Below, in pieces: positions 3,393-58,997 of a stretch of DNA of 64,000 nucleotides; the stretch's first letter is position 1; every line of letters starts with the position of its first letter. Position numbers and translations under genes: made by a program. This DNA is from Candidatus Hydrogenedentota bacterium (GTDB lineage Bacteria; Hydrogenedentota; Hydrogenedentia; Hydrogenedentales; CAILVY01), in contig CAILVY010000192.1 of assembly GCA_903837785.1 (NCBI GenBank), forward strand, positions 1-64,000. Direction: 5' to 3'. The notes below the pieces were generated by a model that worked only from the letters and a program-made list of their open reading frames with translations, was not told the origin of the DNA and made no database searches.

Positions 3393-3512
3393 GTTGGACA
3401 CCCTTTCGTTAGCATACCCCGCGCACACAAAACTCCACACTCTACCCTCTGGGCGCGCCACCCCGTCTTGCGCCCGGCGGCACACCGAGGACCCCGGTCA
3501 CACGTCTGTCAC

Positions 3513-53139: not shown

Positions 53140-56100
53140 CTACGGCAGCGTCAGGTTCAGCGCAGCCGTTTCGCCGGCCTTCAGTTCGAGCACCTGTGCG
53201 GAGAATCGCAGGGTTTCCGGATTGTCTGGCTGCGCGAGGCACATGCTCAGGAAAGTGTAGGTTCCGGGTTCGAGATGCCTCACGGAGATGGCCCCGCTGT
53301 CCTCAGCCTGTGCCACATGCGCCAGATGCTGGTTAATCAATGCGCCAAGGGCTTCCGGGGTGGCCTCGGAGGGCATGGGCACCGCTCCGTCCAATACATA
53401 CACGAAACCTTTTGCCCCCGCGGGGACTCCTTGAAGCACACCCTCGACGCTGCACGACCCCGCGAACTCGCACATCACCCGTTGCGTCTCATTCTCCTGC
53501 AAGGTGATTTCAAAGGTACGCATGGCCTGTTCGCCCGAATCCCAGTGGGTGCTGCAGTGCAGGCTGTACGTGCCCGCCGGAATGTGCTCGATGCGGAACG
53601 TTCCGTCTGCATTGGCGGCCATGTTCGCCGAGAAGGCCCCGTCCGGTCGTCCGAGCGCAATTCTTGCGTACGCCGGAGGCGTGCCCTGCGTGAGAATGGC
53701 GCCGTCGATCGCCGCCGTGCCTTGCCCCAGCGAGACTTCCAGGGGTGTCTCCTGTCCGGCGGCCACGATGACCTTCACTTTGCGGTGCAGCGAACCCTGG
53801 CCGTTCATCAGGTGGACATTGACCTGGACCTCGCCCGGTTGTATGCCCGAAACAAGCACCTCGCCCGTCGACGTGTGCCCCGACCGGTTTAAGGAATCGG
53901 CCGTCTCAATCATGACGCTGAACTCCTCGACCGGCTGGCCGTCAAGCAGCGTGCGCACCCGCATGCTGCCGCCATGCGATAGCACAATGTCGATATGTTC
54001 CGCACGGCCGGGCGTGACGGCGACTTCCGCCGCCACATAACTGTCCTCGAACACGGAGAGCCTCGTTTCCTTTCCGGCGGGCAACTCATCGATGGCAAAA
54101 TTCCCCGCCGCGTCTGTCGTCGCGAGCTCTGTTTGGCGTTCCTTGTCCCGAATCGTTGCCGAAGCCACGGGCTCTCCCGCCTCATTGCGCACAGTGCCCG
54201 TGAGCTTCGCCGCGCCTTGAAGTTCGACGGAGACGCTCGTTTCCTGGCCGCCTTCGGCGATCTCCACCGGCTGTGTCCACGGCGCATAGCCCACGGCCTT
54301 CACTTGGAGAGTCACGGGAATGACCGGAACCTTGTCAAACCGGAACTTGCCCTGCGGATCGGAGAAGCTGCGTTCCCCGCTCTGCAGCACCCCCGTGTCG
54401 AAGGCCGCGTTGACCCGTGACATGTACTCGGCGCTGAAGTTTGGCACCGGCTGGCGTGTGGCCGCGTCGATCACCTCTCCGGAAAGCGCCGCGAAATTCC
54501 GCAGGGTCACTTCGAGGTTGTTTGTGCCCGCCGCCACGCCGGACTTCACCACGGGCGAGTATCCGGGCGACAGCGCATAGACGCTGTAGTTGCCCTCGTT
54601 GAGGCCGCTGAACGTGAAGTTGCCCAGCGCGCCCGACGTGGCGGCCTGACCGCCATCCAAGGTCAACACCGCAAAGGGGCAGCGCATCCCGTTCGGATAG
54701 TACACAGTCCCTTCGATGGCCAAGTTTCCGGCCGGCTTTGCACGCACCTGGACATCCCGGGAAACCACATTCTCCTGAACCGTGACCTGGGCGGAGGCGA
54801 ATTCACCGCTTCGACGGAAGGCAGCGACGTGATACTCGCCGGCGGGCAGCCCGGTGAGCTTGAAACGTCCGCCTGCTTCCGTCCGGGTGGATTCGCCTGC
54901 CTGATACGGCGATGCATCGGAAGCCCTCGCCGATACGTCGACGTTGTACGCGGTCTTGCCATCGGCATCGTACACAACGCCCTCGATGCCGCCATTGGCC
55001 GCCACGCCCAACTCCAGCAGCACTTCAGGCGCTTCCGTCGCCTCCAGACTGACCTCGACCGGTTTGCTCCGTGCCGTGCCGGTCTTGGCCGTCATCGTCA
55101 CTTTCCCGCGGGGCAGCAACGTCAACGAAAAGGCGCCGTTCACCCCTGACTTGCCCTCCATGTACTGGCCGGAGCCCGCGGCCGTCACTTCGGCCGCGGC
55201 CGGGGCGCCGTCCGCGTCCACTACTCGTCCGGAAAGGGTTATCGTGGGCTCCAGGGCGATATCCTGGTTCTCCAGCGTCTCGCCCAGCGAAACGGTTGCC
55301 TGCAATCGTTCACTCTGTGCCGAAAGAAACAACGACGGCCGTTGAGCCCGAATCTCATAGGCGCCCGCGGGCAATCCGGTCAACAGATAGTGTCCGTCCG
55401 GACCCGTGACCACTTTGCGGGAGACACTGATGCCCGCCGATCGAGAATACGTGGAGACGTCGATGCCGGCCACGCCCTCGCCGCTCTTTCCATCCAACAC
55501 ACGGCCCGCGATGGTTGCCCCCTGCGTGACCGCCAACTCGACGCGCGCCTCGGTTCCCGGATCTACGCGTACATTCAGGGCCGGATTGACCAGCGTCAAC
55601 GCGGCATCCTTGATGGAAAAGGCATAGGTGCCGGAAGCCACGGAGTCCATGCGGAACACGCCGCTTGCATCCGAGATGAACTCCTGCTGCATACGGTAAT
55701 CCGGCTGATAGTCCTCGTACGTCGAGACGGGATGGCCGGAGAAGACACTGCCTTTGACTTCGGGGAGCGGTTGACCGGCCGCATCGATCACGCGTCCGAC
55801 CAGGCGGCCCGGCGCCTGGATCACCACGGTGGAACGGAGCCCGTAACACGGGATGTAGTCCGTGTAGAACGGAACATGGCCCGGCGCGACTACAAAAAGC
55901 CGCCAGGCGCCCGGAATGACGCCCTGGAAGCGGAAACGGCCTTCGTTGTCCGTGCAGGCACGGATGCCGGCCACCGTGACATGATCGAATTCCTGTTCCG
56001 GAAACAACTCATGGGAAATCGGATAGAGCACTGCGCCCGGCACCGGATTTCCCGCCGCGTCCAGGAGCACGCCATACGAGCGGATAATCGGGTACATCTT

Positions 56101-57249
56101 GACGTTTCGCGGGCCGTGCACTTTGCCCTCTTTCTCGATGAGGAAATCGTGTGCGCCGCCGAGAAGCGTTGTGTAGGCGGTGACGGAGTAGCCGCCGGCC
56201 GGCAGGTCCGGGAAGGTAAATGACCCGTTGGCGTCCGCCATGGCCACCCATTTCTCGGTCGTTGCCGGCGGCAATTCTCCCGCGCGCCACGTCACCCGTT
56301 CCGCAACCACGCGGGCGTCGCCGACCGGTTGATCAAAAGGAGTCACCAGGACGTTGGACAAAGAGAAATGCCCCACCTCCTCCTCGGCCCGAGTCTCTAT
56401 TGGAAGTTGAAGCGGCGCCGTTTCTGCGGCCTTTGCCGGCGCAGGCGCCGCCGCTTCGGCGGACGCGGCCGATGTCTCGGGAAAGCTGGGTTCCCACCCG
56501 AGCACGGCGGGTGCGGCCAGAAATGCGCCGGCCAGGACTACCGACAGGGCCGCGGAAACGCCCGCCAATTTCGCCGCGCCAATCGCGAGTGCGGCTGCAA
56601 GGCCATGGGCGGAGGCGGCCTTCCATGTGGCGCCCGCCGCCAGTGCCGCCGCGGTGATCTTGCGTGCATTCTTCTTCACGCTGCCAGCCGAGGGCGCCTC
56701 GGGCACCAGCTTGAGGAATTCCTTTCCCAGCGATTCGCGCGCCCGCTGCAGGCGCTTGGCCGCCGCCATGCGCGTAATGCCGTGCAGCTGCGCAATCTCA
56801 CGAAGCGAGCGGCCGGCAAAGTAGTGCAACAACAGCAGTTCACGCGTGTCCGAATCCATCGCCATAAGCGTCTGCTGAAGCATCTGCTGCATCTCGAGCC
56901 GGTCGAACGCAGGTTGCGGCTGTTGGAGTTGTCCCGTCAGCGATGCCTCTTCCAGCGGCACGCCGTCCCGCTGCCGACGCTGCCAGCTCACCGCCGTGTT
57001 CCGCACTATCGTCAAGAGCCACGCCGCGAATTTCTGCGGCACGCGCAACGTGTCCAGCTTCTGATAGGCCGCGAGAAACGATTCCTGCACCACGTCGTCC
57101 ACGTCCGACGGATTCGCGAGATTGCCCCGGGCCACGGCCAGGGCCGCGGGCAAGTGTCGACGCACCAGCACCCCGAAATCGTTCCGCCGCCCCGAAAGCA
57201 CCCGTCGAACGAGATGCGCATCCGATCGTGTCCAAAGCGCCATTAGCAT
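53140..57249 (-). CDS. ECF sigma factor fused through a membrane segment to a giant carboxypeptidase-regulatory-like repeat domain
   Basis: 1,369 residues starting at ATG 57249 after AGGAGG. Residues 10-95 are sigma region 2 (FGVLVRRHLPAALAVARG, DVDDVVQESFLAAYQKL). Residues 115-178 are sigma region 4 with helix-turn-helix (SLREIAQLHGITRMAAAKRLQRARESL). Residues 198-251 are hydrophobic, with one clear transmembrane helix at about 228-251 (VSAALSVVLAGAFLAAPAVLGW). The remaining 1,100 or so residues hold about 8-10 CarboxypepD_reg/Ig-like beta-sandwich modules (GRVIDAAGQPLPE, GRVLDGKSGEGVAG, GTVRNEAGEPVAS). The frame is open throughout. A membrane-tethered sigma factor with an external sensor is the simplest model; no separate anti-sigma gene is adjacent. 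The porin gene is divergent. Confidence 0.9.
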   Translation of the reverse strand: MLMALWTRSDAHLVRRVLSGRRNDFGVLVRRHLPAALAVARGNLANPSDVDDVVQESFLAAYQKLDTLRVPQKFAAWLLTIVRNTAVSWQRRQRDGVPLEEASLTGQLQQPQPAFDRLEMQQMLQQTLMAMDSDTRELLLLHYFAGRSLREIAQLHGITRMAAAKRLQRARESLGKEFLKLVPEAPSAGSVKKNARKITAAALAAGATWKAASAHGLAAALAIGAAKLAGVSAALSVVLAGAFLAAPAVLGWEPSFPETSAASAEAAAPAPAKAAETAPLQLPIETRAEEEVGHFSLSNVLVTPFDQPVGDARVVAERVTWRAGELPPATTEKWVAMADANGSFTFPDLPAGGYSVTAYTTLLGGAHDFLIEKEGKVHGPRNVKMYPIIRSYGVLLDAAGNPVPGAVLYPISHELFPEQEFDHVTVAGIRACTDNEGRFRFQGVIPGAWRLFVVAPGHVPFYTDYIPCYGLRSTVVIQAPGRLVGRVIDAAGQPLPEVKGSVFSGHPVSTYEDYQPDYRMQQEFISDASGVFRMDSVASGTYAFSIKDAALTLVNPALNVRVDPGTEARVELAVTQGATIAGRVLDGKSGEGVAGIDVSTYSRSAGISVSRKVVTGPDGHYLLTGLPAGAYEIRAQRPSLFLSAQSERLQATVSLGETLENQDIALEPTITLSGRVVDADGAPAAAEVTAAGSGQYMEGKSGVNGAFSLTLLPRGKVTMTAKTGTARSKPVEVSLEATEAPEVLLELGVAANGGIEGVVYDADGKTAYNVDVSARASDASPYQAGESTRTEAGGRFKLTGLPAGEYHVAAFRRSGEFASAQVTVQENVVSRDVQVRAKPAGNLAIEGTVYYPNGMRCPFAVLTLDGGQAATSGALGNFTFSGLNEGNYSVYALSPGYSPVVKSGVAAGTNNLEVTLRNFAALSGEVIDAATRQPVPNFSAEYMSRVNAAFDTGVLQSGERSFSDPQGKFRFDKVPVIPVTLQVKAVGYAPWTQPVEIAEGGQETSVSVELQGAAKLTGTVRNEAGEPVASATIRDKERQTELATTDAAGNFAIDELPAGKETRLSVFEDSYVAAEVAVTPGRAEHIDIVLSHGGSMRVRTLLDGQPVEEFSVMIETADSLNRSGHTSTGEVLVSGIQPGEVQVNVHLMNGQGSLHRKVKVIVAAGQETPLEVSLGQGTAAIDGAILTQGTPPAYARIALGRPDGAFSANMAANADGTFRIEHIPAGTYSLHCSTHWDSGEQAMRTFEITLQENETQRVMCEFAGSCSVEGVLQGVPAGAKGFVYVLDGAVPMPSEATPEALGALINQHLAHVAQAEDSGAISVRHLEPGTYTFLSMCLAQPDNPETLRFSAQVLELKAGETAALNLTLP

Positions 57250-57399
57250 GTTCCAATTCCTCCTGGCCTATATGACGCGAAACGGGACGGGGTGTTGACG
57301 TTTGCCTAGTGTAGCGGTAATGGGCATCGAGGGAAAGCTGTGCGCCGTCCCGCGGATGGCCCATGCCGTTCACGTCCCTCTGAATCCCGGACCGGCCTG

Positions 57400-57473: not shown

Positions 57474-58997
57474 GTGACTGCAAGAAACCGACTGCTTGGA
57501 GTCCTTCTGACCGCGATCCTGATGTCCAGGGCCGCCACCGCGCAAGCGCCGTCCGCGGACGTGCAGGCCCTGACGAAACAGGTCCAGGAACTCGCGGAAA
57601 TGAACAAGGTGCTCGCGGACCGCGTGGCCGATCTGGAGAAACGCATCTCGGCCATGGGGAAATCGCAGGATGCAACGCCGGCCGCCCCGCCCGCCGACAG
57701 TGCACCGGCACCTGCTGCGCAGGAATCGGCGCCTGCGCCCGAACAGGCGTCCACGGCGCCCGCCGCGGCCGCGAAGGCCGAAGACAAAGAAAAAGAGAAG
57801 GACAAAGGGCACCTGCTTGAGGTTCGCTGGGACAAGGGGCTACGCCTGGAGTCGCAGGATGGCAAATTCCGGCTGAAACTGGGCGGGCGCGTCTACTTCG
57901 ACGCGGCGACTTTCCGCGCGCCGGACTACTGGTTCCTGGGCGGCGACCGGATCGATGAGCATGACGGGATGGAAGTCAGCCGGCTCCGCATGACCCTTTC
58001 GGGCGAGGTGTACGAGGACTTCCTGTTCAAGATCGAAACGGACTTCGCGGGGGATGAAGTTCAATTGACGGACGCATTTGTGGGCGTGCGCAATCTGCCC
58101 TACGCGGGGACCGTGCGTGCGGGCCAGTTCAGCGAGCCCCTCGGCCTGGAGGCCCTGACCAGTTCACGCTTCATCACGTTCATGGAACGTTCCATGGCCA
58201 CCCAGGCCTTCATTCCGTACCGCTCGCTGGGTCTGGGCGTCTCCAACGCCTTCTTCGACAAACGCATGACGGCGTCCCTGGGCGTGTTCAACGGCGGCAT
58301 TGACCGCGACAACTTTTGGTCGTTCACCGGCCGACTGACGGGCCTGCCGTGGTACGAGAACAAGGGGCGGCGGCTGCTCCACCTGGGGCTCGGCTTTGCG
58401 CACCGCAATCCCGAGAGCGACTACGATTTCCGGGCGCGTCCCGGCAGCAATCAGGCCAATGAGCATATGAATACGGGCGAACTCCCGGTGGACAACCTCA
58501 ACACGTGGTCCGCGGAGACCGCGCTCGTAGTGGGTCCGTTCTCGCTGCAGGGCGAATACTTGCGGACCGACGCGTCGTTCATGCCGGAGAACCGTCACCT
58601 GACCTTCTTCGGATTGCGCGACGCGTACAAGCTGGACGACCGGCATTTCGACGGCTACTACGTTCAGGCAAGCTGTTTCCTCACCGGCGAACATCGCATG
58701 TATGACCCGTCCACCGGCGCCTTTGATCGCGTTATCCCGCGAAAGAACGTGCGGCTCAAGGGCGGCGGCTGGGGCGCCCTGGAACTGGCGCTGCGTTACG
58801 ATACGCTCGACCTCGACGAATTCGATGTGCGCAGCGGCGTCCGCGGCGGCACGGGGCGCAACTGGACCGCCGGCCTGAACTGGTACCTGAACCCGAACAT
58901 GCGGATCATGCTGAATTACGTGCACGCCAGCGTCGACCAGTGGGAATACGATGGAGGCCTGGACATCTTCCAGGCCCGCTTCCAGGCGGACTTCTGA
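57474..58997 (+). CDS. OprP/OprO-like outer-membrane porin
   Basis: 507 residues from GTG 57474 (GGAGAAGG upstream). A signal peptide ends near AATAQA. A trimerising coiled coil (VQALTKQVQELAEMNKVLADRVADLEKRI, residues 30-60), a Pro/Ala-rich linker and a 16-strand-type beta-barrel follow, ending in Phe (FQARFQADF) as outer-membrane proteins do. LKLGGRVYFDAATF and MEVSRLRMTLSGEVYEDFLFKIETDF are phosphate-selective porin signatures. The substrate may be phosphate or other anions. It shares a 224-bp divergent gap with the sigma-fusion gene. Confidence 0.88.
   Translation: MTARNRLLGVLLTAILMSRAATAQAPSADVQALTKQVQELAEMNKVLADRVADLEKRISAMGKSQDATPAAPPADSAPAPAAQESAPAPEQASTAPAAAAKAEDKEKEKDKGHLLEVRWDKGLRLESQDGKFRLKLGGRVYFDAATFRAPDYWFLGGDRIDEHDGMEVSRLRMTLSGEVYEDFLFKIETDFAGDEVQLTDAFVGVRNLPYAGTVRAGQFSEPLGLEALTSSRFITFMERSMATQAFIPYRSLGLGVSNAFFDKRMTASLGVFNGGIDRDNFWSFTGRLTGLPWYENKGRRLLHLGLGFAHRNPESDYDFRARPGSNQANEHMNTGELPVDNLNTWSAETALVVGPFSLQGEYLRTDASFMPENRHLTFFGLRDAYKLDDRHFDGYYVQASCFLTGEHRMYDPSTGAFDRVIPRKNVRLKGGGWGALELALRYDTLDLDEFDVRSGVRGGTGRNWTAGLNWYLNPNMRIMLNYVHASVDQWEYDGGLDIFQARFQADF

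Follow-up and report, generated by a model that had tools for sequence, protein, structure and literature searches.

A one-piece transmembrane ECF sigma factor with a beta-sandwich exterior in Candidatus Hydrogenedentota and its paralogous family

The gene and the layout of its product

The window, that is, the whole 64,000-nucleotide stretch of DNA analysed here (contig CAILVY010000192.1 of a Candidatus Hydrogenedentota bacterium), carries at 53140..57249 on the minus strand a single intact gene, with an ATG start, 1,369 codons, and zero internal stops in the open reading frame (ORF) listing. Based on the ORF, Pfam, and fused orthologues, it encodes a one-piece transmembrane extracytoplasmic function (ECF) sigma factor of 1369 aa. 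Pfam recognizes sigma-70 region 2 (Sigma70_r2) at residues 28-94 (3e-15; 56968..57168) and region 4, type 2 (Sigma70_r4_2), at residues 122-174 (4e-10; 56728..56886), being these the only sigma-70 regions, as in ECF sigma factors. The protein also matches TIGR02937 (3e-25), and the Foldseek matches of the sigma domain are SigW, CnrH, and sigma-E. These regions are followed by a conserved juxtamembrane helix, delimited by family alignment and predicted as helical (residues 188-211, KKNARKITAAALAAGATWKAA; 56617..56688), and by a single transmembrane (TM) helix at about residues 228-251 (56497..56568), assigned by hydropathy and family comparison. The sole strong hydrophobic stretch of the protein is 228-246 (mean Kyte-Doolittle value of 2.15, the next best being 1.04), and no Cys is present in residues 175-250. 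Beyond the membrane, a stalk rich in Ala, Pro, Ser, and Glu, defined by sequence and family composition (residues 252-296; 56362..56496), leads to an exterior in which beta-sandwich modules follow one another over about 1,070 residues, and where Pfam finds 11 stretches of CarboxypepD_reg (3.6e-91). Two membrane-proximal modules (residues 297-486; 55792..56361) show the highest conservation in the exterior and are a candidate sensor, and the remaining CarboxypepD_reg-like modules span residues 487-1369 (53143..55791) according to Pfam and a repeat profile. All these features lie on the minus strand. The original prediction, made from the letters of this DNA, of one frame holding ECF sigma regions 2 and 4, a membrane helix, and CarboxypepD_reg modules is therefore confirmed by ORF, Pfam, and hydropathy, its coordinates and the position of the helix being right.

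Since the assembly is fragmented (407 contigs), a chance or assembly fusion joining two unrelated genes was considered. However, orthologues of five further genomes are fused at the identical point, and so are dozens of paralogues, which rejects a frameshift or assembly join and leaves this explanation practically without credit. The orthologue from the same genus (G001:C171) is fused identically, with 57% identity over residues 3-1184 in an uninterrupted frame of 1247 aa, and lacks about 180 C-terminal residues relative to the window protein. The other fused orthologues belong to G007, G008, G039, and G043. In the last one (L158:1454-5574, minus strand), the frame is broken inside the exterior, near locus position 3400, and not at the sigma-TM junction; this may be an error of the metagenome-assembled genome or a true break. 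The fusion is thus genuine across residues 190-260, the region in which the original prediction would have been undone by a frameshift or join.

The flanking genes encode a DUF2752 protein, two DUF975-like membrane proteins, a porin (Porin_O_P; divergent, 57474-58997), and a metallophosphoesterase (Metallophos). None of these neighbors is an anti-sigma gene, as the original prediction had stated, so that the canonical ECF/anti-sigma pair is absent from the neighborhood.

A constant chassis with varying exteriors

A sigma-TM profile was searched over 68 Hydrogenedentota genomes, and at least 36 of them, counted from the listed matches, show a match whose open frame is 450 aa or longer; G052 alone has about 16 family frames above 500 aa. 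Across 72 frames that were extracted, the principal hydrophobic segment starts at a median residue of 229, and in more than 60 fused relatives these starts fall within a narrow band. Sigma regions 2 and 4 are present in all 50 aligned members, and CarboxypepD_reg in 38 of these 50, so that the sigma-TM-CarboxypepD_reg architecture, which the original prediction proposed to look for in related genomes, is found both in the fused orthologues and in most of the alignment. A home-made repeat profile detects repeats in 55 of the 72 members. Between the sigma domain and the membrane, the same 50-member alignment shows the motif IM.A..AAPVAW, with a nearly invariant Trp209. The remaining exteriors include STN repeats, Sel1 repeats, and a PQQ propeller (Pfam), among other types, with a DUF1559/pilin-like type and a multi-TM type assigned by sequence reading.

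When the exterior labels are mapped on a sigma-domain tree, a minimum of 11 changes is required, and the starred branches alone force at least four for the CarboxypepD_reg label. Also, the sigma lineage of L045 and L122 is separated from the rest by a long, fully supported branch, and CarboxypepD_reg exteriors occur on both sides of it. These label changes, together with CarboxypepD_reg in two distant sigma lineages, argue that exteriors have been exchanged: the sigma-juxtamembrane-TM chassis is constant while the exterior varies. The view of a single protein with a self-tethered sigma domain, as first proposed, is therefore supported in its tether and too narrow in its scope, as the gene is one of a large set of paralogues whose exteriors are exchangeable.

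Several members depart from the common layout. The genome of the window encodes a second CarboxypepD_reg sigma fusion of 1,339 aa (L045:5774-9790, plus strand), whose sigma domain belongs to the distant ECF lineage and which may represent an independent fusion or an exterior transfer. Two members end soon after the TM helix (L047:5122-6060, minus strand, 313 aa; L249:4581-5603, plus strand, 341 aa) and consist of sigma domain and anchor, with no exterior. In one subclade (L022:8072-9733, minus strand; L214:1977-3614, plus strand), several hydrophobic segments replace the single TM helix and the exterior. One-piece sigma genes are found as adjacent tandem pairs at L191 and L203, the exterior types being different in the latter. 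Two-gene versions inside the family were also considered and rejected, since the short frames inspected are contig-end cuts (L242, L248) or other ECFs; L244, for example, is a different ECF with its own ZAS-like anti-sigma factor.

A split counterpart is found outside this architecture. The window's own genome (G000:C84; L287, 1418-5582) and the sister genome (G001:C104; L288, 2011-6230) share a conserved locus of three genes, encoding an ECF sigma factor, a TM protein of 149 aa without Pfam match, and a TM-anchored CarboxypepD_reg protein of 1,005 aa, with identities between both genomes of 75, 65, and 53%, respectively. The 149-aa protein is a candidate anti-sigma factor. As the parts fused in the window protein also adjoin here as separate genes, CarboxypepD_reg exteriors are tied to ECF control independently.

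Predicted self-recognized promoter, membrane topology, and a possible route of release

Upstream of the window gene lies an ECF-type promoter, CGTCAAC-N16-CGTCATA (57271..57300, minus strand), with the -35 element at 57294-57300 and the -10 element at 57271-57277, which would be autoregulatory according to the orthologue motif and a held-out test. A common element, TGTC[AC]AC-N16-[CT]GTC[AT], precedes the orthologous genes; it agrees with the AAC/CGT signature typical of ECF promoters (PMC8103513) and in four cases ends 20-21 nt before the ATG. The orthologous N-termini share MLM/MLT/MLI...RSD, and because orthologous starts and promoter-box spacing agree, the start is fixed at 57249; a ribosome-binding site (AGGAGG, 57259..57264, minus strand) can be read 9 nt before it. 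A looser rule drawn from the orthologues, TGTC-N18-20-[GA]TC[AT], was then applied to the 110 nt upstream of 56 other family genes, and 21 of them carry a match, compared with a mean of 0.68 and a maximum of 4 in 500 shuffles, 1 on the opposite strand, and 5 among 267 control ORFs. This held-out rule is preferred because a position weight matrix comparison was partly circular, being trained on the same sequences. Given the enrichment in held-out members over shuffles, opposite strand, and control ORFs, the predicted transcription of its own gene by the sigma factor is well supported.

In six genomes, the full motif in promoter position is found essentially only at sigma genes, among the matches examined, with one additional match (L258) ahead of a questionable ORF close to the end of its contig. 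With the strict pattern, no wider regulon emerges in these genomes, the matches occurring at the rate of the reversed-pattern control and mostly inside ORFs, and a generic AAC-N15-17-CGTC scan gives no clear signal (4 against 1.4 expected). This near restriction to sigma genes, and an exterior that is large and adhesin- or scaffold-like, would suit a mainly self-regulating envelope protein, where the sigma head sets the amount of exterior and its own gene is the chief target. Nonetheless, a strict pattern may miss regulons with degenerate promoters, and the proximal modules are more conserved than one would expect of a simple scaffold, so we regard this explanation as improbable. The divergent porin had been proposed as a target gene, but its side of the divergent region has no promoter match, even with up to 3 mismatches allowed, and neither the G001 orthologue nor any further homologous locus that was inspected has a porin nearby. 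Accordingly, of the proposal of a promoter motif shared by the family and the porin, the family part stands, and the porin part is not supported.

As for topology, the segment of 60 residues that leads into the TM helix contains on average 7.6 Lys/Arg and 4.5 Asp/Glu, whereas the 60 residues after it contain 3.5 and 7.9, respectively (72 members), and the stalk behind the helix is rich in Pro, Ala, Ser, and Thr across the family (fraction of 0.47). The net positive charge before the helix and the net negative charge after it fit an N-in/C-out topology, in agreement with the single N-in helix and outward exterior of the original prediction. Alternatively, the juxtamembrane segment at about 197-211 could be a second membrane pass, which would leave the CarboxypepD_reg part in the cytoplasm, as several relatives show moderate hydrophobicity there (Kyte-Doolittle values of about 1.1-1.6). 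However, the segment of the window protein falls below the reporting threshold of 1.0, the charge distribution favors N-in/C-out, and CarboxypepD_reg, STN, and stalk sequences are typically extracytoplasmic, which makes a second pass very improbable.

A signal would be received where the exterior is most conserved. Among four orthologues, residues 303-482 show 69-78% identity per 30-residue block, with one block of 57%, compared with about 63-68% for the sigma blocks, linker aside, and mostly 30-60% for the distal modules. Because such conservation would be surprising in passive spacers, this argues for a real sensor, and modules 297-486 are the candidate. The pair is recognized at full strength only in the orthologues and in a G001:C95 paralogue, weaker matches being other CarboxypepD_reg proteins. 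The proximal modules (55792-56361) also have a weak profile similarity to the endoplasmic reticulum (ER) protein NOMO2 (E-value of 1.5e-9).

Taken together, we favor, with somewhat better than even confidence, a one-piece receptor sigma factor that is inactive at the membrane and is freed by regulated proteolysis to act on its own gene and a small set of targets. In the resting state, membrane tethering would withhold the sigma domain from RNA polymerase, and the juxtamembrane helix would probably fold back onto it, standing in for an anti-sigma factor. Signal input, from a ligand or from an envelope protein, would reach the proximal modules 297-486, the exterior would be trimmed, and an RseP-type cleavage inside the TM helix would follow, after which the freed sigma fragment could transcribe, besides its own gene, a target set that is small or degenerate. 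An RseP-type site-2 protease is encoded in the genome of the window (C188, a 575-aa frame), and for IutY of Pseudomonas putida, cleavage by Prc and RseP has been proven experimentally (PMC5411451); by this precedent and the presence of the protease, proteolytic release is plausible.

For the fold-back of the helix, structure prediction offers a hint. The model of the sigma domain with its tail is closer to anti-sigma-bound ECF structures (TMt of 0.79 for CnrH and 0.77 for SigW) than the model without it (0.69 and 0.63), a comparison of one model each on a shallow alignment. That the tail brings the model nearer to these structures hints that the juxtamembrane helix may occupy the anti-sigma position. 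The same likeness, the conserved helix with its near-invariant Trp, and the absence of a separate anti-sigma domain would also fit activation without release, in which the sigma domain works while membrane-bound, in the manner of ToxR or CadC, or opens by a conformational signal passed through the TM and juxtamembrane helices. However, IutY, the only experimentally characterized one-piece TM ECF with such a mechanism, acts after cleavage, and the structural comparison carries the limits just given; tethered activation therefore seems unlikely, although less so than the purely self-regulating envelope protein discussed above.

Several points weigh against the proteolytic receptor model. Release, inhibition, and ligand are steps that we infer. 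No zinc finger, ZAS, or FecR domain is recognizable by Pfam between the sigma domain and the TM helix, and the hydrophobicity of the latter is moderate (Hessa sum of about +0.5). Although the sigma domain is predicted confidently, the helix at 186-205 (numbered from Met3) has modest confidence, and the exterior is modeled poorly, with a predicted local distance difference test mostly <50 over 206-385. Also, a clear promoter match is absent from about 40% of the members tested, and one-mismatch motif matches occur at the control rate, with no wider regulon visible.

Distribution and relation to known systems

When 127 genomes from other phyla were searched, the long fused frames among the top matches listed all came from a single genome, G106, assigned to the Poribacteria by match coordinates identical to those of genomes with named Poribacteria contigs. 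Within this phylum (85 genomes), some genomes hold at least 30 scored matches, many in frames near 1,000 aa, and the genomes reached via L053, L061, L097, and L119 have 36-62 sigma-model matches each. The Poribacteria members (L224-L240) show one TM helix near 215-235 and propeller-like exteriors, WD40-, Kelch-, or BNR-like by sequence reading; they are partly in tandem, several along G280:C107. A tblastn search of plasmids gave ordinary ECFs only, among the matches listed. It is about an even chance that in Hydrogenedentota and Poribacteria, receptor sigma factors of this kind are a main signaling system, with a chassis carrying a built-in juxtamembrane inhibitor, many exchanged exteriors, a shared self-recognized promoter (in Hydrogenedentota), and no separate anti-sigma factors.

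Whether ECFs that lack a separate anti-sigma factor control themselves is a question posed in reviews (PMC8103513), and such ECFs are an open problem, for which this family offers a large natural series with a constant switch and anchor and a changing exterior. With its predicted self-promoter as a convenient reporter, this series opens built-in inhibition and release across the membrane to direct testing, and one-gene synthetic sensors might be derived from the chassis.

One-piece TM sigma factors are already known (IutY, ECF52; PMC8999054). The open-access papers searched gave no description of Hydrogenedentota sigma fusions, of ECFs with CarboxypepD_reg exteriors, or of their shared promoter; as far as searched, and by comparison with published descriptions, the family is undescribed. 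IutY (ECF243; PMC5411451, PMC8999054), like the window protein, combines an ECF sigma domain, a single TM helix, and an extracytoplasmic part in one polypeptide. However, IutY has 374 aa, a FecR-like anti-sigma exterior, and a TonB-dependent receptor as partner, whereas the window protein carries its long CarboxypepD_reg array, no FecR match in Pfam, and no adjacent receptor gene. ECF52 (SCO4117 of Streptomyces coelicolor; PMC5826349) likewise fuses sigma domain, TM helix, stalk (Pro-rich in ECF52), and extracellular domain, and proteolytic release has been proposed for it too. Nonetheless, ECF52 is reported to be confined to Actinobacteria, and it carries a carbohydrate-binding module and, ahead of its TM helix, an anti-sigma domain of the zinc-finger type (PMC5826349); the window protein lacks both domains. 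The NOMO arrays of the BOS complex share the module fold with the proximal modules, but NOMO is a eukaryotic ER protein with no sigma domain. Finally, ECF57 and the WD40-ECFs of Planctomycetota are also expanded paralogous ECFs with large repeat extensions, and some planctomycete ECFs were recovered in detergent-soluble fractions (PMC8999054, PMC8567305, PMC11032199). Their extensions are WD40 repeats, of which Pfam finds none in the extension of the window protein, and the papers cited do not present them as one fixed TM chassis on which exteriors are exchanged. In this comparison, the Poribacteria members look nearer to the ECF57/WD40-ECF type, whereas the Hydrogenedentota family mostly carries CarboxypepD_reg.

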